Assembly (NCBI GenBank): GCA_003990745.1
Contig: RBNI01006508.1
Span: 1-11,257, forward strand
Reading direction: 5' to 3'
DNA: 11,257 nucleotides
From: Jimgerdemannia flammicorona
Lineage: Eukaryota > Mucoromycota > Endogonomycetes > Endogonales > Endogonaceae
The notes under the pieces were generated by a model. The model did no database searches. It was not told the DNA's origin and saw only the letters and a program-made list of their open reading frames with translations. A program made the position numbers and the translations under genes. Shown here one piece after another: positions 1 to 11,257 of this stretch (its first letter is position 1; every line of letters starts with the position of its first letter).

Positions 1-20
1 TTTTTATTTATTTATTTTTT
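1..20 (-). repeat. A-rich tail or A/T flank at the 3' end of copy A
   Basis: Read on the minus strand, this stretch follows the last LTR base as A6-T-A3-T-A3-T-A5. The first six A residues are also present after the 3' LTR of copy B, but not after either 5' LTR, so they may be a tail of the element. It could equally be a simple-repeat target. The window edge prevents a check for a target-site duplication. Confidence 0.45.
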
Positions 21-724
21 TATTATAAAATGAGTAGATAATAGAGGAATAGTTTAGAGTGAGATGTGATACTATTACAGCAGATATGAAAGTCAGTGGT
101 AAGAGGTCAAGTAGTAGAAATCAAAAGTCTTATGTGAATTTTCACAACAGAATAAAGTAAGCAGAATAAAGTGTTTTCTGAAGCAAGGTACAATAGATCT
201 GCAACCCGCCTATGGCACCATGATATGTGGTAGTCTTTATTCAAAAATGAGAACAAAGTTTGGGTAAACAAAGACATGGATCTAACCCCAGAATTCCAGA
301 AGTAGAATGGTGCATAAGTACCCAAGTCTTACCCCAATCCAAACAAGTGTCTGAATCGAGCTTCATCGATCTATATATGTGACAGGCCATTAAAAACCTG
401 ATATAGAAACAATCGAGAAAAGGTACTGGTCATGTGATCTAATGTTACACATATAATAAACAATGCTAAAAATGGAACTAGACCAATGATATGTCATATG
501 TCATCACGTGATTATTACTTATAGATTTTAAAAACCTAAAAATCATCAGTACCCGAAGATGCAAGCATCAGGCCTAGAGCCTCACAACCAGAGTAGAGTA
601 GAGCCTTGGCACTGGAGCGAGCAAAGTGAGTGGAGATAGATAGGTATCATAGAGCATAGATATATAGGCATCAGACCTAGAGTCTTACGCTGGAGGTTGT
701 CTAGTGATTTTTCACGTTTTTAAA
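21..724 (-). repeat. 3' LTR of copy A, complete (704 bp)
   Basis: This matches, without any length change, the LTRs at 6497-7200 and 10383-11086 in inverted orientation, and its 3' 515 bp match 5991-6505 in direct orientation. On the minus strand it begins TTTAAAAAC (724-716) and ends TATAATA (27-21). It carries an AATAAA polyadenylation signal on the minus strand (241-236), conserved in all four LTRs. A 72-codon open frame inside (325-107) is not conserved in copy B. Compared base by base with 5991-6330, positions 21-360 show 34 differences, all transitions and no gaps. Confidence 0.88.
236..241 (-). promoter_or_regulatory. AATAAA polyadenylation signal in LTR of copy A
   Basis: TTTATT on the plus strand is AATAAA on the coding strand of copy A. 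The equivalent hexamer is intact in the other three LTRs (6206-6211, 6980-6985 and 10866-10871), about 215 bp before each LTR end. Conservation amid 10 percent divergence is suggestive, but the use of the signal is inferred. Confidence 0.45.
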
Positions 725-1004
725 CATCACATGGTATATACAGGTGGTGCAGCCTTCAAGGAGGACTTAGAGTAAAGCTAGTATTTGAGATGGCATTAAG
801 AATAGTAAAACCATTCTTCTGGGTAATGATTGATCATCAGGCAGTTGCAGGGAAACCAAAATGAAGCAAAGTGGTATATAGAGTCTTGTCAGGCTGTTAA
901 TGTAGCCATTGGGCCATGTCGTATTGGACAACAAGTAATGGGAGAGGGAAAGTGGAGTGGGAAATGGGGGGGTGGGAAATAAGGGAAGGGGTGAGAAGTG
1001 AAGT
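725..1004 (-). other. 3' untranslated region of copy A with a purine-rich tract
   Basis: These 280 bp lie between the end of the reverse transcriptase and the 3' LTR. The length is identical to the equivalent stretch of copy B (10103-10382). On the plus strand 940-1003 is almost pure purine (G/A), so the coding strand is pyrimidine-rich. In copy A the usual stop codon of the reverse transcriptase reads CGA instead of TGA, leaving the frame open to 897, so part of this stretch might once have been coding. Nothing else recognisable is present. Confidence 0.55.
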
Positions 1005-1560
1005 TCGGACCTCAAGCCAATCAACCAAACTCAACTGAGTGATTACAACATCAACAGAGTATCCTTTCCTGTAAACCAGGAATTCAGCCAGAGACTGACA
1101 CTCATCAAGCCAATCATGGCAAGAAGAGCAGAGTAGTGATAGGTGGTGGGCCTCATTCACAATACATAGACAGAGTGTCTTCCTAAGATGATTACTCAAC
1201 CAGTCAACAAACTGAGTACTATGTGGGAACTTGACAAAGCAGCCTGTGTGGAATGGTGCAACCTGTATTTCTAAGTCCAGATAATGGCACAGTCTAGCGG
1301 ACAAGACTTCCCATTCGATATGATGGTGCAGGGGATAAACAGTACCAAAAATCACAGCCAAGTCCATAATCACAGGCATAAAGACAATAAGATCATCAAT
1401 ATACTGGTGGAACTTTAGCCTGGTGTCAATGGCTTAGCTAAGCGGATGGTCAGGCACTTGTAAGGTGCACAACTCATGAGTGAAACCAACAAGATTGGCA
1501 AGATCTGGAGCACAATTGGTACCCATAGCAATACCAGTCACAGAGCAGAAGGAACCGATG
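1005..1560 (-). pseudogene. Reverse transcriptase, C-terminal third, copy A (broken)
   Basis: This is the part of the copy A reverse transcriptase downstream of the insertion. It starts at the GSFCSVTG segment and includes the GIAMGTNCAP motif, the catalytic YIDD (Asp-Asp codons at 1397-1392) and the LDLEI segment that follows the catalytic site in Penelope-like RTs. It ends without a GIY-YIG endonuclease domain. A TAA at 1436-1434 replaces a CAA still present in copy B. At the position of the copy B stop, copy A has CGA (1007-1005), so its frame runs on to a stop at 897. Insertion plus duplication is 2,067 bp, a multiple of three, so the frame on both sides is nominally the same. Confidence 0.8.
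1556..1560. repeat. Left target-site duplication (CGATG)
   Basis: CGATG here and CGATG at 3623-3627 flank the insertion exactly. The uninterrupted equivalent in copy B, read on its minus strand, has one CGATG between the same flanks. This proves insertion with a 5-bp duplication, the usual size for LTR retrotransposons. Confidence 0.9.
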
Positions 1561-2236
1561 TATAAGAGGGTTGCTTTTTAGGGTAACCATTACATAGTTC
1601 TAGAAGGGTTTTCTGGAAGTTCTAGATATTCTGGAAGACCATTTTCTTATAGTCAATATCAATTTCATATGGAGTACATCCTCTACGCTTATTGATTTCA
1701 AGATCGGGTTGACGTCTCAACCAAAGTCCTTTCTCGGACTAGTTCTGGATGTTCAGGATTTTCCATATTTCAGGAAGTTCAAGAAACTAAGGCCAGCTTA
1801 GTTGAATTGGCATATCGCTGCAGACAATACCCAATTAGGAAATTTCGTGATGGGGTTAGGAGTAGGACCTAACGGGGAGCGGATTTACTTAAGAGTGGTT
1901 TGTGGGTTATTATATAGATTTATTCGCTATTCATGATATTGCTATACTAGGAGTAGTTGTGTGAGGGGATATTGTGGAAGTGCTCAGGAGTTGTGTTCGG
2001 ATTGTTCAGGTCTGAGATTCTGAGGTTTGGGGGAGGGGGTATTTATACTAGTGAGGGGCTATCTGGGCTATGCTAAATATGGGTATAGCACTAAGTGCTT
2101 TGCTGAGTCAGAATGCAGTTATGTAGTACAATAGTGATCTGATATATCAAGAGATCGTCTGACTGATGAGTCAGTTCACAGTCACGTCGTACAAGGCTAA
2201 TCTAACTATACTATGACTGCTAGGCTATTTATAGGT
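1561..2236. other. Non-coding 3' part of the insertion
   Basis: No open frame of note lies here on either strand. The outer end has closely spaced copies of TTCTGGAAG and TTCTAGA-like words (about 1599-1640). Two perfect TGAGTCA heptamers sit at 2104-2110 and 2167-2173. A TATTTATA-type A/T word is at about 2040-2049. The stretch is downstream of the minus-strand ORF and would hold its 3' untranslated region and terminator, neither of which can be pinned down. Confidence 0.4.
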
Positions 2237-3334
2237 TTAGGCGCTGTCTGGATAGTCTTCGATGACATCACTATCGATTGCATCATCTCTGAAGAAGTAG
2301 TCATCTAGGAAGAGTGGTTCGCGGATTACTTCTCCTTGTTCGCTGAGGTAATAATACATTGGAACTTCATCTCCATCCCACAGGATAGCATCATCTGTCT
2401 CATATGCTAGATAAGATATTGGTGGGCAATGGAGGGGTGTATTGTCTTCATTTTCATTGGATTCGCTGTCTGCATATCTTCTATAGGTTACAGCACTATG
2501 AGTCACAGGGTTGTAGTAAGCTGGCGGTTGTGGTTCATGTCACTCGTACTCAGGTAGTGGAGTTGTTAGTTCAGTCTCAAGGGTTGTCTGAAGGTACAGG
2601 TTGTGTTCTCCGGTCTCTTCATTATTGTTGAAGTAATCGGGGGTGAATGCAGGTTGGTATTCATGCCAGTGATCATTGTCCCAATAATTCTCGTATGTGG
2701 TTATGAACTGTTGTAAGTTCATTGGCAGAGTTGGCGGTGTGATCAGAGTTGGAAGAGATCCTTGGCTTGAGGTCATGTCAGCGTCGGAAGGATCATTGTC
2801 TTCTGCTTCGTCTTTGTCGAAGTTGATTATATCATAGATGTCCTTTATGGCATATCCAACTTAGGGCATTTGCAGGATGTGATCATTGGGGTGTGGGAAG
2901 GTTCTGTCTGTGGTTTCAACATACTCAAGGTACTTGTGGTTGAGTTCTTGTATCATGTCGTCGATTTGGCCATAGGACAAGGTAGTAACCATTTTGCTAG
3001 TAGTGACTCGAAGGCGGGGAATAAAGGTGCTGTACTCATAAAAGAGTTCTCGGTGTTTGCGGGTGATGAGTTTCTGGTGTTGAGACATCTGGGTAATGTC
3101 TGTATTGTAGTAGTGTTCAACCATGTCTTCCAGGAGGTGGCCGATCTGGTAGTAGCTTGAGATTTGTCCAATCCGGTGGGCCTCGTTAAGTATGTTCAGG
3201 GCATTCCATCAGGCTTCCACGAAGTAGAGAGGTGCTTGGCTGTAGATATTCATGAGAGGCAGAGGGGGTGTGGCTCAGTTGACAATGGCATTCCAAATGT
3301 CAACATGGATGTAGTTGTAGATCTCGGTGGTCAT
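2237..3334 (-). pseudogene. Decayed ORF of unknown function in the insertion
   Basis: One minus-strand frame runs from an ATG at 3334-3332 to TAA at 2239-2237, 366 codons, interrupted only by four stop codons: TGA (3277-3275), TGA (3211-3209), TAA (2863-2861) and TGA (2542-2540). All four can come from single C-to-T changes in CGA or CAA, matching the transition damage elsewhere, so I read it as one gene rather than three small ORFs. The N-terminal half is rich in Trp, Tyr, His and Ile and looks helical (WNALNILNEAHRIGQ, about residues 43-57). The C-terminal half is acidic, with Asp/Glu-rich blocks and an acidic end (DDAIDSDVIEDYPDSA). I see no protease, RT, integrase, transposase or zinc-knuckle motif. 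A capsid/gag-like role is possible but unproven. A TATA box and two TGACTCA sites lie just upstream. Confidence 0.6.
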
Positions 3335-3403
3335 GTTTGTATGTTTGGGAGTTATGGTTATTATTTGTTTTGGTTCTCTGTTTCAATGCATCTTGGGGCT
3401 GGG

Positions 3404-3414
3404 TATATATATAT
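3404..3414 (-). promoter_or_regulatory. TATA box of the insertion ORF
   Basis: An 11-bp alternating T/A run lies 70 bp upstream of the ATG at 3334 in the minus direction. That is a plausible distance for a TATA element plus a short 5' untranslated region. It is the only such run in the upstream region and is followed further upstream by paired TGACTCA sites. Promoter function is inferred. Confidence 0.5.
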
Positions 3415-3470
3415 TTGTTCTAGATTGGTAAGATCCTGTTTGTGTGAATCTTGTGTTCCATGACTTGGTA

Positions 3471-3513
3471 TTGACTCAGCTTTGTGCACTGTGACTTCTG
3501 TTTGACTCAGCTT
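3471..3513. promoter_or_regulatory. Paired TGACTCA (bZIP/Gcn4-type) sites
   Basis: The 12-mer TTGACTCAGCTT occurs twice, at 3471-3482 and 3502-3513, 31 bp apart, about three helical turns. TGACTCA is the canonical binding site of AP-1/Gcn4-class bZIP activators. The pair lies 57-110 bp upstream of the TATA box of the minus-strand ORF. Two further TGAGTCA copies are at the other end of the insertion. Binding has not been shown and is inferred from the motif only. Confidence 0.45.
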
Positions 3514-3622
3514 CATAATTTTGCAAGTGATTTCCAGATTTGTTCGAAGATCGTGTGTGATTTTGGTGGCTTGTTCAGAGGATAATGTGTGGTTTCTGTG
3601 ACTTGGAGGTTGTGCGCTTACA

Positions 3623-3627
3623 CGATG
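3623..3627. repeat. Right target-site duplication (CGATG)
   Basis: This is the second copy of the 5-bp duplication made by the insertion at 1561-3622. The flanking reverse transcriptase sequence continues directly from here (ending FTSAIV) and resumes with GSFCSV on the other side, matching the continuous reading in copy B. Confidence 0.9.
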
Positions 3628-4825
3628 GCAGATGTGAATATCATATGAGTCATAACTATGCGGACAAGGCCGAGAATGGCTTCAAGTGGCAAAGAGCCAG
3701 GGGGGAAGGCCACTATCGACAAAAAGGTGAGGTAGTCAATATACTCATCTAATCTGATCCTGGTGTAGAAGATGGCAAAATCCCCAGTAGTGATGTAGTT
3801 ACAATCTGACATATATAGGTAATCTGAACAAACCAATTGTAGCAGTTCAAGCATATCACATAGAAGTGAATAATGTGAGTAACCCACATTATGACGCAGA
3901 TGGGCTGACTACAGGTGGAGAAAGTGAGATAGGAAATGCGAAATCTTAGTCATGGGAGAGTTAAAAGCACTAACAATAGGGTGCCATGCCACACATGCCC
4001 CTTTGTGTACCTTGGGCAAAGCATGAAACATGGGTAGCTTACAATCGTTAGGCTCCATGAGGTGTTCCCAAATCGGCATACAATCCTTGTCGTTGATACA
4101 GAACTTGAGAAGACCAAGCAGGTCTAGCCTCACTGATTCCTTAATGTCATCAATCATAGAGAAATCAATCACATATATAGGATTATGAAGGAGGGACCAA
4201 AGACCATCTAGATATAGAGTATGTGGAATTACAGCGAACCTTAGATTTTTGTTAGTAAGACAGACTGTGAAGTCATCATGAGCACAGATGCCTTTGAGAA
4301 GGCAACAGAGCTTCTTCAGTACAAGTGTGCCAGACACGTTCATCGAGGGTTGGATGGCTTGATTCAGAGTAGTACTCATATAGAGCATAATTTGCATATT
4401 TTCCATACAATACAGCAGTTGCCATTTAGATGGCACCCAGGCAGAGATCTCTGGGACATCATCAGGATTACTCATAGAGGTCCAGAAAGTGGCAAGGTCG
4501 AGATGCCATTGGAACAATGACAATGAAATCGGATCAATAGTACTGTTCATCAAAGCCGATCCGGGGAGAACAAACTTAGGGCCAAAGTTCAGCATATATG
4601 TGAGCTTGGAGGTAAGCCAAGGCAGAGGTATATCAGTAACAAAGCCCTCCTTGGTAAACATCCAAAACTGAGGGATGAAAAACTGACTTAAGCAAGAACT
4701 GAGAAGAGAAGACATAAAGGCAAAATCCTCAATTGGTATTGAGGCTGCTACCCCATATGGAATGGGGACATCAGGGCCAAACCACACTGCCAGAAAGTCA
4801 TATGAGACTTCTAGGCTGGGGATCT

Positions 4826-4835
4826 CTAGTTTTTT
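4826..4835 (-). promoter_or_regulatory. -1 ribosomal frameshift site and ORF1 stop, copy A
   Basis: On the minus strand the sequence reads A-AAA-AAC (4835-4829) followed at once by TAG (4828-4826), in ORF1 phase tca-aaa-aac-tag. This matches the X XXY YYZ rule for -1 slippage. The reverse transcriptase frame is the -1 frame. The same ten bases are unchanged in copy B, although surrounding sequence has diverged. Confidence 0.75.
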
Positions 4836-5984
4836 GAAGCTAGAGGGCAGATGTTGCCAGCATTATACCAGACAATATAATGCTTGATGGTAGTACACTT
4901 GTTGCACTGCAGCACAAATACTCTGGTGGTACTCTTAGATGAGCGGCTTGAAGTCAACGAGCAGCTGGTTCTGGTAGAAGCAGAGGAAACAGATGGAGAA
5001 GGTGAAGCCTTATGTGCTTGCTTGACCCCTTTTACAGAACCCACTGTCTGGCATGGGCTAGGGGGCAAGGACCCTGGTGAGCCTTCATAGACACACCAAG
5101 GCATCCAGAATAGCTATGGCAGTTTGGCATGGCAGAGGCCAAAGTCATACTCATACCCTTGGCCTTTTCCACAGCCCCCGCAGGTACAGCAGTAGAGGGT
5201 AGGGAGTGGGGACACTCTTTTTTGGTCAGGCAGAACTGGTAGCAGCAGAGGCAAATGTGTATTTAGCATCCGGAGTAACAATCTCAGGATGTTTCTCAAG
5301 CTCCTCGACTATGGCTTTGCAGGCGATGGCAGAAATCCCATCTTGTAGGGAGGAGGATGCAGGGATAGTCAGGCAGACTGTAGCAGCAGTGGCTTTAGCA
5401 GCGGTGGCAGTGGCAAAATGGTGAGACTGACATATGATAACATCAAAACTACAGAGCAGAAACAAGTTTGTCTTGGCTTAGTTGGTGACAGCGAGGGTAG
5501 CAATATTCTTACTAACCCCTTAAGTGATATCAATGGATATTCCAAAGAAATTATGGGCATTGGAAGAACCACCCATGGCCTTATCGATTTTAGCATACTG
5601 GTCCTTAGTGTGTTGGGCAGTGGCATCTTGATCAGAGACAGCAGCCTCAATGGCAGCAGTGGTGCAGTGCTTAGCTTCTGCCGAAGCAGTAGTAAGGGCA
5701 GTGGTATGCTGTTCCTCTGAGAGGAGGGCAATCAAAGCAGCAATCTTCTTGGAAGGAGTAAACTTCCAATCAGCAACTTAGGCTCTCAAAAAGTCAGCAC
5801 AGCACTCATGTGCAGCAGCAACCTCAAGAGTATGGAGCACTCCGGTGCAAGCAGCATGGAAGCTAGCGGGGACCTTAATAAGTGAAGCAGTCAAGTAGAT
5901 GGCCAGGTTATTGAAGTTCGCCAAATCGGCAAACAAAGCTTTGGAGATGGTAGTATCGCCATCTACATTCATGTTATCTGTCAT
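4826..5984 (-). pseudogene. ORF1 (gag-like position), copy A (broken)
   Basis: The ATG at 5984-5982 lies only 6 bases after the LTR end. About 386 codons are expected before the TAG at 4828-4826. Copy A has nonsense codons at 5777-5775, 5522-5520 and 5480-5478 (each CAA in copy B) and at 5228-5226 (TGA against CAA, implying an original CGA). It also has two 1-bp deletions relative to copy B near 5205 and 5060. Composition is Ala/Thr/Ser-rich, with a helical, probably coiled-coil region (ALLSEEQHTTALTTASAEAK, about residues 85-105). Next come a Ser/Pro/Lys-rich basic tail and a Cys/His cluster C-x2-C-x4-H-x10-C near the C-terminus (CNKCTTIKH). A role as nucleic-acid-binding gag-like protein is inferred from position and composition. 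No family is recognised. Confidence 0.65.
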
Positions 5985-5990
5985 ATTATG

Positions 5991-6505
5991 TATTATAAAA
6001 CGAGTAGATAATAGAGAAATAGTTTAGAGCAAGATGTGATACTATTACAGTAGATATGAAAGTCGGCAGTAAGAGGTCAAGCAGTAGAAATCAAAAGTCT
6101 TATGTAAATTTTCACAACAGAACAAAGCAAGTGGAATAAAGTATTTTCTGAAGCAAGGTACAATAGATCTGCAACCCGCCTATGGTACCATGATATGTAG
6201 TGGTCTTTATTCAAAAATAAGAACAAAGTTCGGGTAAACAAAGACACAGATCTAACCCCAGAATTCCAGAAGTAGAATGATATATAAGTATCTGAGCCTT
6301 GCCCCGATTCAAACAAGTGTCTGAATTGGGCTTTGTCGATCTACATACATGACAGGCTATTAAAAACCTAATATAGAAACAATCAGAAAATGGTACTGGT
6401 CATGTGATATAATATTACACATACAATAAACAATGCTAAAAACAGAACTAAACCAATGATGTGTCATGTGTCATCATGTGATTATCACTTATAGGTTTTA
6501 AAAAC
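5991..6505 (-). repeat. 5' LTR of copy A, truncated (515 bp)
   Basis: It is a direct repeat of 21-535 and an inverted repeat of 6686-7200. It lacks the first 189 bp of the 704-bp LTR and ends at the central junction in TTTTAAAAAC, which also starts the LTR of copy B. AATAAA on the minus strand is at 6211-6206. Positions 5991-6330 differ from 21-360 by 34 transitions, no transversions and no gaps. Confidence 0.85.
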
Positions 6506-6534
6506 ACAAAAAATCACCAGACAATCTCTGGTGT

Positions 6535-6661
6535 GAGGCTCTAGGCCTGATACCTGCATACCTATGCTCTGTGATACCTGTCTACCTCTGCTTGCTTCGC
6601 TCGCTCTGGTGCCAAGGCTCTACTCTGCTCTGGTCACGAGGCTCTAGGCCTGATGCCTGCA
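6535..6661. repeat. Direct repeats with AGGCCT core in the LTR 5' block
   Basis: GAGGCTCTAGGCCTGA starts at 6535 and 6638, 103 bp apart, with a partial third unit AAGGCTCTACT between them. The same pair with the same spacing is in the 3' LTR of copy B (10421 and 10524), and copy A has it inverted at about 570-690. Position at the LTR start suggests promoter or RNA-structure function, which is unproven. Confidence 0.6.
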
Positions 6662-6979
6662 CCTTTGGGTGCCAACGATTTTTAGGGTTTTAAAACCTAT
6701 AAGTGACAATCACATGATGACACATGACACATCATTGGTCTAGTTCCATTTTTAGCATTGTTTATTGTGTGTGTAACATTAGATCACGTGACTGGTACCT
6801 TTTCCCAATTGTTTCTATATCAGGTTTTTAATGGCCTGTCACATGTATAGATCAACGAAGCCCAATTCGGACACTTGTTTGGATCAGAGCAAGGCTTGGG
6901 TATTTATGCACCATTCTACTTTCGGAATTCTGGGGTTAGATCTGTGTCTTTGTTTATCTGAACTTTGTTCTTATTTTTG

Positions 6980-6985
6980 AATAAA
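6980..6985 (+). promoter_or_regulatory. AATAAA polyadenylation signal, 5' LTR of copy B
   Basis: Intact AATAAA at LTR position 484-489, the same place as in the other LTRs. In a repeat-flanked element the 3' copy (10866-10871) would set transcript ends and this one would be bypassed or cause premature ends. Function is inferred. Confidence 0.4.
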
Positions 6986-7206
6986 GACTACTATATATCA
7001 TAGTGCAATAGGCAGGTTACAGATCTATTACACCTTGCTTCGGAAAACACTTTATTCCACTTACTTTGTTCCATCATGAAAATTCACATAAGACTTTTGA
7101 TTTCTACTGCTTGACCTCTTACTGCCAACTTTCATATCTGCCGTAACAGTATCACATCTTGCTCTAAACTATTTCTCTATTATCTACTCATTTTATAATA
7201 CACAAT

Positions 7207-8348
7207 ATGACAGATAACATAAATATAGATAGTGATACTACTATCCCCAAAGCTTCGTTTGCCAATTTGGTAAACTTCAATGACCTGGCCATCTACTTGA
7301 CTGCTTCGCTTATCGAGGTACTTGCACCGAAGTGCTCTGTACTCTCAAGGTTGCCACCACACATGAGTGCCATGCTGACTTTTTGAGAGCCCAAGTTGCC
7401 GATTGGAAGTTTACTCCTTCTAAGAAGGTCACTGCTTCAATTGCCCTCCTCTCAGAAGAACAGTGTGCCACTGCCCTTACTACTGCTTTGGCAGAAGCTA
7501 AGCACCATGCCACTGCTGCCATCAAGGCTGTCATCTCTGATCAAGATGCTGCTGCCCAGTATGCTAAGGACCAGCATGCTAAAATCAACAAGGCCATGGG
7601 TGGTTCTTCTAATGCCCATAATTTCTTTAGAATATCTGTTGATATCACTCAAGGGGTTAGTAAGAATATTGCTACCCTTGCTGCCACCGACCAAGCCAAG
7701 ACAAACTTGTTTCTGCTCTGTGGTTTTGACATTGTCATGCATCAGTCTCGCCATCTTGCCACCACCACCACTGCTAAAGTCACTGCCGCCACAGTCTGCC
7801 TGACCATCCCTGCATCCTCCTCTCTGCAAGATGGGATTTCTGCTGCTGCCCGCAAAGCTGTAGTCGAGGAGCTTGAGAAGCATCCCGAGATCGTTACTCC
7901 GGGTGCTAAATGCACATTTGCCTCTGCTGCTGCTGGTTCCGCCCAACCAAAAAAGAGTGTCCCCACCCCCTCACTCTCTACTGCTATGTCTGCAGGGGCT
8001 GCGAAAAAGGCTAAGGGTGTGAGCATAACTTCAGCCTCTGTCATGCTGAACTGCCGTAGCTGTTCTGGATGCCTTGGTGTGCCTACGAAGGCTCACTGGG
8101 ATCCTTGCCCCCTAGCCTCTACTATGACAGTGGGTTCTGTAAAAAAGGTCAAGCAAGCACGTAAGGCTTCACCTTCCCCATCCATTTCCTCTACTTCTAC
8201 TGGGACCAGCCACTTGTCAACTTCGAGCCACTTGTCTAAGAGCGCTACCAGAGCATTTGTGCTATAGTACAACAAGTATACTACTGCTAAGCATTATGTC
8301 ATCTGGCATAATACTGGTGATGTCTGCCCTCTAGCTTCAAAAAACTAG
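7207..8348 (+). pseudogene. ORF1 (gag-like position), copy B (broken)
   Basis: It starts MTDNINIDSDTT at the ATG six bases after the LTR. A 19-bp deletion near 7320, seen by comparison with copy A, shifts the frame. From 7332 the correct frame is open to a TAG at 8265-8267 (CAG in copy A) and then to the TAG at 8346-8348. The protein is Ala/Ser/Thr-rich with a helical central part (about 7430-7600) and a Lys/Ser/Pro-rich C-terminal third. A Cys-rich patch (CRSCSGC, about 8053-8073) is visible. The C-terminal Cys/His cluster of copy A has lost its first two cysteines to tyrosine here through G-to-A changes. No homologous family is recognised. Its place before a frameshifted RT argues for a gag-like nucleoprotein. 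Confidence 0.65.
8339..8348 (+). promoter_or_regulatory. -1 ribosomal frameshift site and ORF1 stop, copy B
   Basis: A-AAA-AAC (8339-8345) is followed directly by TAG (8346-8348). ORF1 codons are tca aaa aac tag (8337 onward, same phase as ORF1). Slipping one base back gives aaa aaa cta gag, which is exactly the reverse transcriptase frame. That frame is open only from 8321, just after a TGA, and its first ATG is far inside. This is a canonical eukaryotic -1 slippery heptamer in correct phase. Confidence 0.78.
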
Positions 8349-8357
8349 AGGTCCCCA

Positions 8358-8385
8358 GCCTGGAAGTCTCATATGACTTTCTGGC
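8358..8385 (+). ncRNA. Possible frameshift-stimulating hairpin
   Basis: GCC (8358-8360) pairs with GGC (8383-8385). After a U-U mismatch, GGAAGUC (8362-8368) pairs with GACUUUC (8375-8381), with one G-U pair and a 6-nt loop UCAUAU. It begins 12 nt after the slippery heptamer, slightly longer than the usual 5-9 nt spacing. Copy A keeps the fold with one A-C mismatch. It could be chance, and a pseudoknot was not resolved. Confidence 0.35.
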
Positions 8386-10102
8386 AGTGTGGTTTGGCCC
8401 TGATGTCCCCATTCTACATGGGGTAGCAGCCTCAATACTAATTGAGGATTTTGCCTTTGTGTCTTCTCTTTCTGGTTCTCACTTAAGTCAGTTTTTCATC
8501 CCTCGGTTTCGGATGTTTACTGAGGAGGGCTTTGTTACTGATATACCTCTATCTTGGCTTACCCCTGAGCTCACGTATATGCTGAACTTTGGCCCTAAGT
8601 TTGTTCTCTCTGGATCAGCTTCGATGAACAGTACCATTGATCTGATTTCATTGTCATCATTCCAACAACATCTCGACCTTACCACTTTCTGGACCTCTAT
8701 GGGTAATCCTGACAATATCCTGGAGATCTCCACCTGGGTGCCATCTAAATGGCAATCACTGCATTATATGGAAAATATGCAAATTATGCTCCATATGAGT
8801 GCCACTCTGAATTAAGCCATCCGACCCTCGATGAACATGTCTGGTATGCTTGTACTGAAGAAGTTCTATTGCCTTCTCAAAGGCATCCATGCTCATGATG
8901 ACTTCACAGTCTGTCTTACTGACAAAAATCTGGGATTCGCCATAATTCTGCGTGCTCTATATCTAGATGGTCTTCAGTCCCTTCTTCATGATCCTGCATA
9001 TGTGAATGATTTCTCTATGATTGATGACATTAAGGAATCAGTGAGGCTAGACCTGCTTGGTCTTCTTGAGTTCTGTATCGATGATAAGGATTATATACCG
9101 ATTTGGGAATACCTTATGGAGCCTAATGATTGTAAGCTACCCATATTTCACACTTTGCCCAAGGTACACAAAGGGGCACGCATGGCATTGTGCCCTATTA
9201 TTGGTGCTTTTAACTCTCCCATGACTGAGATTTCACATTTCCTATCTCACTTTCTCCACCTGTGGTCAGCCCATCTGTGCCATAATGTGGGTTACTTGTG
9301 TTATTCACCTCTATGTGATATGCTCGAACTGCTACAATTGGTTTGTTCAGATTACCTAGATGTATCAGATTGTAACTACATCATTACTGGGGATTTTGCC
9401 ACCTTCTATACTAGGATCACATTAAATGAGTGTATCAACTGTTTCATCTTTTTGTTGACGGTGGCCTTCCCCTCTGGCTCTTTGCTGCTTGAAGCCATTC
9501 TTGGCCTTGTCCGCATAGTCATGACTCGTACGACATTCACATCCACCATCGGTTCCTTCTGCTCTGTGACTGGTATTGCTATGGGCACTAATTGTGCTCC
9601 AGATCTTGCTAATCTTATTGGTTTTACTTATGAGTTGTGCACCTTATAAGTGCCCGACCATCTGCTTAGCCAAGCTGTTAATGCCAGGCTAAAGTTCTGC
9701 CAGTATATTGATGATCTTATTGTCTTTACACCTGTGATTATGGACTTGGCCGCAATTTTTGGTGCCGTTTATCTCCTGTACCATTGTATCAAATGGGAAG
9801 TCTTATCCACTGGACTGTGTCATTATCTGGACTTGGAAATCTGGGTTGCACTGTTCCACACAGGCCACTTTGCCAAGTTCCTGCATAGTATTTAGTTTGT
9901 TGACTGGTTGAGTAATCATTCTAGGAAGACACTCTATCTATGCATTGTGAATGAGGCCTACCACCTATCACTACTCTGCTCTTCTCACCATGATTGGCTT
10001 GATGAGTGTCAGTCTCTGGCCAAATTTCTGGTTCACAAGAAAGAATACCCTATTGATGTTGTAACTACTCAGTTGAGTTTGATTGATTGGCTTGAGGTCT
10101 GA

Positions 10103-10382
10103 ACTTCACTTCTCACCCCTCTCCTTATTTCCCACCCCCCCATTCCCCACTCCACTTTCCCTCCCCCATTGCTTGTCATCCAATACGACATGGCCTGATG
10201 GCTACATCAACAGCCTGACAAGACTCTATGTACTGCTTTACTTTGTTTTGGTTTCCCTGTGACCGCCTGATAACCAATCATCACCCGGAAGAATGGTTTT
10301 ACCATTCTTAACACCATTTCAAATACCAGCTTCGCTCTAAGTCCTCCTTGAAGGCCACACCACCTGTACATGCTGTGTGATG
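10103..10382 (+). other. 3' untranslated region of copy B with pyrimidine tract
   Basis: These 280 bp separate the RT stop from the 3' LTR and are collinear with 725-1004. 10104-10167 is pyrimidine-rich on the coding strand: 57 of 64 bases are C or T, seven are A and none is G. A classical LTR retrotransposon would show a polypurine tract on this strand, directly before the 3' LTR, so this is not a normal primer tract. The rest has no recognisable features. Confidence 0.55.
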
Positions 10383-11084
10383 TTTAAAAACATGAAAAAT
10401 TGCCAGACAACCTCCGGCGCGAGGCTCTAGGCCTGACGTCTATATACCTATGCTCTGTGATACCTGTCTACCTCTACTTGCTTCACTCACTCTGGTGCCG
10501 AGGCTCTACTCCACTCCAGTTGTGAGGCTCTAGGCCTGACATCTGCGCCTTCGGGTGCTGACGATTTTTAGGTTTTTAAAACCTATAAGTGACAATCATA
10601 TGATGATACATGACACATCATTGGTCTAGTTCCATTTTTAGCATTGTTTATTGTGTATATAACATTAGATCATGTGACCAGTACCTTTTCCCAATTGTTT
10701 CTATATCAGGTTTTTAATGGCCTGTCATGTGTGTAGATCAATGAAGCCCAATTCGGACACTTGTTTGGATCGAGGCAAGGCTTGGGTACTTATGCACCAT
10801 TCTACTTTCAGAATTCTGGGGTTAGATCTGTGTCTTTGTTTATCTGAACTTTGTTCTTATTTTTGAATAAAGACTACTACGTATTGTGGTGCTATGGGTG
10901 GGTTGCAGATCTATTGCACCTTGCTTCGAAAAACACTTTATTCCACTTGCTTTATTCCATTGTGAAAATTTACATAAGACTTTTGATTTCTACTGCTTGA
11001 CCTCTTACCACCGACTTTCATATCTGCCATAACAGTATCATATCTCACTTTAAACTATTCCTCTATTATCTACTCATTTTATAA

Positions 11085-11086
<2 letters not shown>
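10383..11086 (+). repeat. 3' LTR of copy B (704 bp)
   Basis: Direct repeat of 6497-7200 with no net length change and transition-type differences, and inverted repeat of 21-724. It starts TTTAAAAAC and ends TATAATA. It holds the AGGCCT-cored repeats at 10421 and 10524 and AATAAA at 10866-10871. It runs directly into eight A residues that are absent after the 5' LTR. Confidence 0.88.

Positions 11087-11116
<30 letters not shown>
11087..11116. repeat. A8 then (TA)11 simple repeat after copy B
   Basis: Eight A residues follow the LTR end and are succeeded by eleven TA units. The A-run may be the tail of the element. The TA array may be a pre-existing microsatellite target or an expanded tail. 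The 3' end of copy A also abuts an A/T simple sequence. Confidence 0.65.
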
Positions 11117-11118
<2 letters not shown>

Positions 11119-11199
11119 GAAAAAGATCTATCTCTTTACCAAATACCTCTTTAGAATAGAAAATATATAGGCAGATCTTCTTAGTTATATCTACTCAGA

Positions 11200-11235
<36 letters not shown>

Positions 11236-11257
11236 TTTATTTTTTTTTTTTTTTTTT
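11117..11257. other. Flanking A/T-rich DNA and poly(T) tract
   Basis: About 85 bp of unique-looking A/T-rich sequence (11117-11201) contains no recognisable gene. It is followed by a nearly pure T tract from about 11202 to the window end, broken by two A residues. The tract could be the reverse-strand poly(A) tail of another retrotransposon lying beyond the window, or a simple repeat. Confidence 0.5.

Follow-up and report, generated by a model that had tools for sequence, protein, structure and literature searches.

Penelope-like elements (PLEs) that lack an endonuclease (EN) have been described with two open reading frames (ORFs) (PMC6431247), and fungi hold only such EN-lacking PLEs (PMC3846280); here and below, statements on published PLEs refer to excerpts of the papers cited. 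Fungal and protist PLEs are said to lack the pseudo-long terminal repeat (pLTR) and inverted organisation, and for Penelope elements with a GIY-YIG EN, head-to-head copies have been reported and self-priming has been proposed, with the polarity of the template left open (PMC3846280). Here we describe a retroelement on an 11,257-nt stretch of the genome of the fungus Jimgerdemannia flammicorona (assembly GCA_003990745.1, contig RBNI01006508.1, positions 1 to 11,257 of the forward strand), which is called the window at its full length and figures as contig C6508 in the copy counts. The window holds two copies of the element, whose family we call F1, as the inverted halves A (minus strand) and B (plus strand), and each half has an ORF1 followed by a reverse transcriptase (RT) frame. 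Judged from sequence, the slip site at the end of ORF1 is probably a programmed -1 frameshift signal of an EN-lacking Penelope-like fungal retroelement, and would make an ORF1-RT fusion. An initial annotation of this stretch regarded a single ORF as usual for PLEs, which holds for the EN-bearing elements and fails for the EN-lacking ones with their two described ORFs (PMC6431247).

Results

Candidate slip site and reading frames

The junction between ORF1 and RT was read in both halves of the window.

8339..8345, plus strand: slippery heptamer A_AAA_AAC of half B, followed by TAG 8346-8348, the ORF1 stop (direct reading)
4829..4835, minus strand: slippery heptamer A_AAA_AAC of half A, followed by TAG 4828-4826 (direct reading)
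8358..8385, plus strand: candidate stimulatory stem, 12 nt past the heptamer, with an outer helix that may begin nearer (folding z-scores)
7207..8348, plus strand: ORF1 of half B, gag-like, with two zinc motifs, broken near 7320 and at TAG 8265-8267 (open homologue P0002)
8321..10360, plus strand: RT frame of half B, -1 relative to ORF1, its end estimated from locus L020 (undisturbed relative P0001, 679 aa)

ORF1 had been annotated as ending TCA-AAA-AAC-TAG in its own phase, and the bases at 8339-8348 (AAAAAACTAG) agree with this. An unbroken ORF1 in half B was not borne out: its phase is interrupted before the heptamer by a frame loss near 7320 and by the TAG at 8265-8267. In half A the last 95 ORF1 codons run into the heptamer (ORF 4826-5113, minus strand). 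The RT lies in the -1 frame and is open from 8321, behind a TGA at 8318-8320, just as the initial annotation had it, and is interrupted within half B by stops at 8813-8815, 9647-9649, 9893-9895 and 10100-10102. Nor does an ATG lie near its start, the first one being residue 68 of the RT frame in the undisturbed relative L020. Stop readthrough at the ORF1 TAG was set aside, as ORF1 and the RT occupy different frames.

The same ten bases stand in half A (minus strand, 4835-4826), and the frequent transitions that had been noted between the copies recur across the family: nine F1 dimers contain 2730 differences between their halves, 2650 of which (97%) are transitions and 1526 (56%) of which fall in CG/TG/CA dinucleotides. 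Because transitions dominate and an A-run with one C is little exposed to them, identity of the heptamer in halves A and B is weak evidence. The near-exclusive transitions between dimer halves point to decay that is methylation-linked or like repeat-induced point mutation, and could date insertions.

We then turned to the draft genome (134.8 Mb, 7754 contigs), in which the fungal domain Zn_clus has 51 matches, compared with 0 in 14 control genomes, as befits a fungal host. The best 40 of 119 candidate places scored for F1 lay on 28 contigs, and 30 of these 40, on 21 contigs, were extracted as loci. The heptamer with its TAG is kept in 28 of these 30 halves, the exceptions being L002, which reads AAAAAATTAG, and L022, which has lost one A; taken within F1 alone this retention is likewise weak, since the differences are mostly transitions. 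In L003, L010, L020 and L023, ORF1 is open up to the heptamer and is overlapped by the RT frame at -1; in L020, ORF1 is open over 427-1644 and the RT frame over 1611-3647.

Second family and more distant relatives

A public protein search returned at least two relatives among about 8000 scored candidates, P0003, whose start lies inside the RT, and P0004. When the genome was searched with the remote relative P0004, 39 matches were obtained in the best 40 of 118 candidates and 20 were cut out as loci; two of these were F1 copies and nine were assigned to a distinct family, F2. The F2 RT is 42% identical to the F1 RT over 684 aligned positions, and ORF1 and RT of F2 share the -1 offset seen in F1. 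Eight of the nine F2 loci read TTC-AAA-AAA-AGT at the junction, which places A_AAA_AAA in the phase of ORF1; the scanned stretch of L081 lacks it. In both families the A-run comes after the second of two zinc-type motifs in ORF1, CxxCSG.L and CxxC....VWH....C. These counts, together with the 28 of 30 in F1, give a positive answer, within one genome, to the conservation check on homologues that the initial annotation had proposed. Its suggestion of gag-pol-style -1 expression also appears supported, by a 42%-identical family with the same offset and an A-run behind the same zinc motif. Searches of viral contigs gave no match and a megablast search of plasmids no relative, and 7 pattern matches in prokaryote contigs yielded 0 confirmed relatives.

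In dinucleotide shuffles of the junction region, an in-frame canonical heptamer fell in the ORF overlap in 56 of 5000 cases for F1 (1.1%) and in 279 of 5000 for F2 (5.6%). Exactly one in-frame heptamer, the slip site, was found in ORF1 of L020, and likewise in the 249 ORF1 codons on L078 (F2). The RT could instead be produced on its own, through splicing of the mRNA, internal or non-AUG initiation, or termination-reinitiation at the ORF1 stop, with the heptamer as a chance A-run; six-A runs are not rare, and the single fungal-type pattern used to find introns that would join the frames gave one match in F2. We consider this unlikely. The same pattern gave 0 candidates in F1, the first ATG of the L020 RT frame lies behind sequence that is conserved in F2 (aligned from residue 22), and a heptamer is again present at the corresponding position of F2, with no second one in phase in the ORF1 stretches read from the two families.

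Folding was assessed for the sequence behind the heptamer. The F1 stem at L020:1650-1700 has a z-score of -3.03, with 0 of 200 shuffles folding as well, and further F1 folds scored -2.81 (100 nt of the window), -2.84 (60 nt of L020) and -2.21 (136 nt of L020). The spacer between a slippery heptamer and its stimulatory structure is usually 5-9 nt. Several observations weigh against programmed frameshifting as we propose it. Two 100-nt F1 folds are unremarkable (z -1.69 and -1.23), the F1 stem begins 12 nt past the heptamer and so beyond the usual spacer, and the F2 junction has no stable nested fold behind the heptamer (z +0.70 and +1.55). In P0004 and L063, which are more remote relatives, a single frame spans the upstream region and the RT, so the -1 arrangement is not general, and F1 and F2 both come from one genome. 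L063 represents a further RT lineage in that genome. By eye, a possible F2 pseudoknot (GAGG/CCUC, GGGGAAG/CUUCCCC) was seen at L078:719-763, four bases past the heptamer.

Protein domains

The RT motifs DKN-G, LPKVHK, DF..FYT, GIAMGTNCAPDLAN, YIDD and NHP..T fit what we take to be the Penelope/telomerase clade. The element seems to resemble PLEs, a tentative assignment that draws partly on these motifs. Profile searches speak less clearly: the F1 and F2 proteins gave only weak RVT_1 matches in Pfam at E<=1 (E 0.0072 and 0.013), and this fit, below the Pfam cut-off, counts against the assignment. In NCBIfam the F1 RT had no match, the F2 RT and P0003 matched retron RT weakly (E 0.13 and 0.053), and P0004 matched several RT models far below cut-off. 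Nothing significant was found in the PDB by sequence (best E 0.09; a group II intron-like RT at E 0.24), and the structure of P0003 predicted from a 6-row alignment has a mean pLDDT of 40.6.

At E<=1 in Pfam, no GIY-YIG endonuclease was matched in P0001 or the F2 RT, and no protease, RNase H or integrase in the F1 and F2 proteins; pieces of the window gave a few chance families below cut-off. Rfam detected no hammerhead in the window (E<=1) or in L020, L078, L083 and L037 (E<=5), and a mir-204 match in the RNA-family scan was dismissed as chance (E 2.4).

Head-to-head dimers

Along the window the order is poly(T), 3' repeat A, body A (minus), X2 (minus), X1, X2 (plus), body B, 3' repeat B and poly(A), with the following parts beside those of the junction.

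6513..6678, plus strand: X1, single-copy loop at the dimer centre with inverted repeats on either side; borders approximate
6679..7205, plus strand: X2, 5' repeat of half B, with TATAAG near its start (by eye)
5986..6512, minus strand: X2, 5' repeat of half A, the inverted arm (inverted-repeat scan)
10383..11092, plus strand: 3' repeat X1+X2 of half B, with poly(A) at its end
15..724, minus strand: 3' repeat X1+X2 of half A, with poly(A) at its end (poly(T) on the plus strand)
725..5985, minus strand: body of half A with the ORF1 ATG (5984-5982) and the RT, interrupted by foreign DNA at about 1561-3622

The inverted arms 5872-6512 and 6679-7319 are 88% identical. A minus match followed by a plus match was found on 12 of the 28 contigs with F1 matches, at a spacing of 4625-4701 nt on 10 of the 12, 4577 nt in the window and 5072 nt on C1623. 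All nine paired contigs read (eight and the window) have the centre X2'-X1-X2, with an extra stretch in C5590. Ten of the 16 single-match contigs were also read, and eight of them show the same centre and then an inverted ORF1; the centres of C516 and C7500 pass into other sequence, LINE-like by eye. Dimers thus make up 17 of the 19 F1 centres read. The inserted unit of F1 is a head-to-head dimer, and the pair of copies is no chance neighbourhood.

The centre joins the X1 start (GTTTAAAAAC) to the complement of the X2 start. C1256 and C655 have slightly different crossing points, which suggests that the centre junction is made anew. At the outer ends, 27 of 28 halves have TTTATAAT(A) followed by an A-rich tail (L018 is truncated; L006 and L022 fall outside the count). 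No target-site duplication beyond chance was found in six dimers other than the window, where the longest words shared by the flanks measured 8, 4, 5, 6, 4 and 5 nt against shuffle means of 6.2, 4.8, 5.6, 5.5, 4.8 and 5.1. In the 110 nt beside the tails of the six dimers no telomere-like repeat was seen by eye, no formal search having been made. Both flanks of the C2185 dimer (L043, L044) match one repeat in the same orientation, as with a large duplication or a dispersed repeat.

The matching loop of F2 lies between GGATTAAAAAACATCC and the complement of that sequence. C1055 is centred in the same way, with arms of 1186 nt and a loop of 151 nt; the centre of C168 is more complex. Two features of F2 tell against extending the dimer cycle to it: the loci listed end at a fixed point without poly(A), and both strands occur on only 3 of 35 contigs among the best 40 F2 matches listed. 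F2 may therefore be dimeric less often. By eye, the F2 repeat at the 3' end (L078 and other loci) extends past a possible ORF1-start ATG, as animal Penelope pLTRs also do, and F2 X1 apparently begins at the RT stop codon. The 3' flank of the F2 copy L069 (C53) is F1 sequence (79.5%), so F2 inserted into F1 there, which offers a known target for studying F2 insertion.

The insert that splits half A (1561-3622) is foreign and 2.06 kb long, with an apparent 5-bp duplication CGATG (by eye) and loosely similar ends. It contains a decayed minus-strand ORF at about 2237-3360, and two pieces of the insert had no Pfam match above cut-off.

One template per dimer

We compared the two halves of each dimer in trees. 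They came out as sisters in all nine dimers, both in unmasked trees and after masking of CpG columns (support 0.935-1 when masked). In C3019 and C7227 the halves differ by 0 transversions, compared with 20 to the nearest other half, and in seven of the nine dimers no minority transversion is common to other dimers. For X2, two transversions per dimer between the 5' and 3' copies were artefacts of the ends (columns 511 and 513) and were trimmed beforehand. The X2 copies of one dimer then form one clade in 9 of 9 full trees and 8 of 9 CpG-masked trees, and transversions between 5' and 3' X2 within a dimer number 0 in four dimers, 0-2 in three, 3-6 in C1256 and 6 in C5590. Each dimer had one template. 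The sister halves and grouped X2 copies point to one template per insertion, LTR-like renewal of the repeats and a hairpin-primed second strand.

Some data run counter to this. The halves of C5590 differ by 35 transversions, more than the 25 counted to some other half, and on masked distance the plus half has a closer match (0.060) than its own partner (0.068). C1256 and C5590 each share, through one half or the other, 3 minority transversions with other dimers, and X2 divergence inside these two (3-6 and 6) is about that to other dimers (4 and 5). Tail lengths are unequal in all six dimers measured (28/18, 21/16, 8/23, 11/31, 33/20 and 7/12), which also fits an origin from two RNAs. Under that origin each end of a double-strand break would start a cDNA at poly(A), after which the pair would anneal at X1/X2 and be filled in; the A-rich tails at both outer ends and the unusually different halves of C5590 agree with it as well. 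This is a serious contender, which we nevertheless doubt: the halves and X2 repeats of a dimer trace to one template sequence, and two RNAs would therefore nearly always need the same source copy.

Whole-dimer copying, with the arms kept alike by gene conversion, seems very improbable. Long inverted arms can convert, yet changes confined to a single half (between 93 and 145 CpG-masked differences in each of seven dimers, with private transversions) rule for these dimers against continuing conversion; the 5' and 3' X2 are homogenised too, and the centre junction varies in C1256 and C655. Inverted repeats misassemble easily and the genome is a draft in 7754 contigs, but we give almost no credence to an assembly artefact or a segmental duplication of one dimer, given that the flanks beside the tails differ among the six dimers read on both sides and that the halves carry private differences.

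Discussion

The frame offset and the heptamer in two families were read directly. In the expression mode that we propose for them, most ribosomes would finish the gag-like ORF1 at TAG, and a minority would slip on A_AAA_AAC into the -1 frame to give an ORF1-RT fusion. The constant dimer centre, the outer poly(A) and the single template of each dimer are observations of the same kind, around which we infer a replication cycle. The RNA would begin behind the TATA box at the X2 start and extend through the 3' X2 to a terminal poly(A). The ORF1-RT product would then prime at poly(A) from a broken DNA end. On reaching the RNA 5' end, the cDNA would jump to the 3' repeat and copy the missing part of the repeat and X1. 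Its 3' end would fold back, with the X1 start pairing with the X2 start and X1 as the loop, and prime the second half, and the host would join the far end. We put this cycle forward tentatively, as something a little short of evenly balanced.

The replication of PLEs and their frequent inverted copies have been left open, and head-to-head copies had suggested an antisense template (PMC3846280). In F1, the outer poly(A) speaks for a template that is sense and polyadenylated, and the single template of each dimer speaks for cDNA that primes itself, so that the replication question becomes directly testable. If the reading of the slip site is true, its retention across two families would show that gag-pol-like stoichiometry can be reached by a second route, in retroelements with a presumed kinship to telomerase. 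It is possible, though short of an even prospect, that a Penelope-like branch reached gag-pol-style -1 frameshifting independently of retroviruses and replicates via a hairpin cDNA. On this view an LTR-like strand transfer would renew the repeat, the cDNA would fold back at an inverted repeat of its own, and the head-to-head dimer, with both outer ends in poly(A), would be captured at breaks without endonuclease or integrase.

A literature search, which did not cover the primary accounts of Athena/Coprina, Terminons and permuted elements, found no programmed frameshifting or slippery site tied to PLEs. Where 'frameshift' stands near PLEs in the excerpts of PMC3846280, PMC5408684 and PMC6431247, it denotes mutations or LTR elements, and the excerpts of PMC5408684 and PMC7943196 mention no frameshift for PLEs. 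The slip site is provisionally regarded as new among PLEs.

Comparison with known systems

Among described systems, the EN-lacking PLEs (Athena of rotifers, Coprina of fungi) are, from the excerpts, alike in having two ORFs and an RT without GIY-YIG, and in the case of Coprina a fungal host. They are described there as telomere-associated. F1 has repeats that resemble LTRs, is inserted as dimers, ends in poly(A) and carries a -1 slip site. The GIY-YIG Penelope elements Pen1-6 of Adineta vaga share head-to-head copies, pLTRs, junction palindromes and proposed self-priming (PMC3846280). Elements of this type carry a single ORF with endonuclease and form variable, partial inverted copies; some of the cases described have 8-10 bp duplicated at the target and others have no duplication. 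F1 departs from them in its whole inverted halves, its two ORFs, the lack of an endonuclease match and the lack of a detected duplication.

Retroviruses and Ty3/copia-like elements have an upstream gag-like zinc protein, a -1 heptamer, and 5' and 3' repeats that are renewed together. F1 shares the zinc protein, the heptamer and the jointly renewed repeats, and its 5' and 3' X2 of one dimer are equally alike, as LTRs are; it differs in having no protease, RNase H or integrase match, no U5, and an inverted dimer with poly(A) at both ends. Twin priming of LINEs leaves one end with poly(A) and an inversion that is partial and irregular. Such 5' inversions resemble F1 in that opposite parts are joined at their 5' ends and poly(A) is present, whereas F1 is distinguished by poly(A) at both ends and by a near-constant centre.

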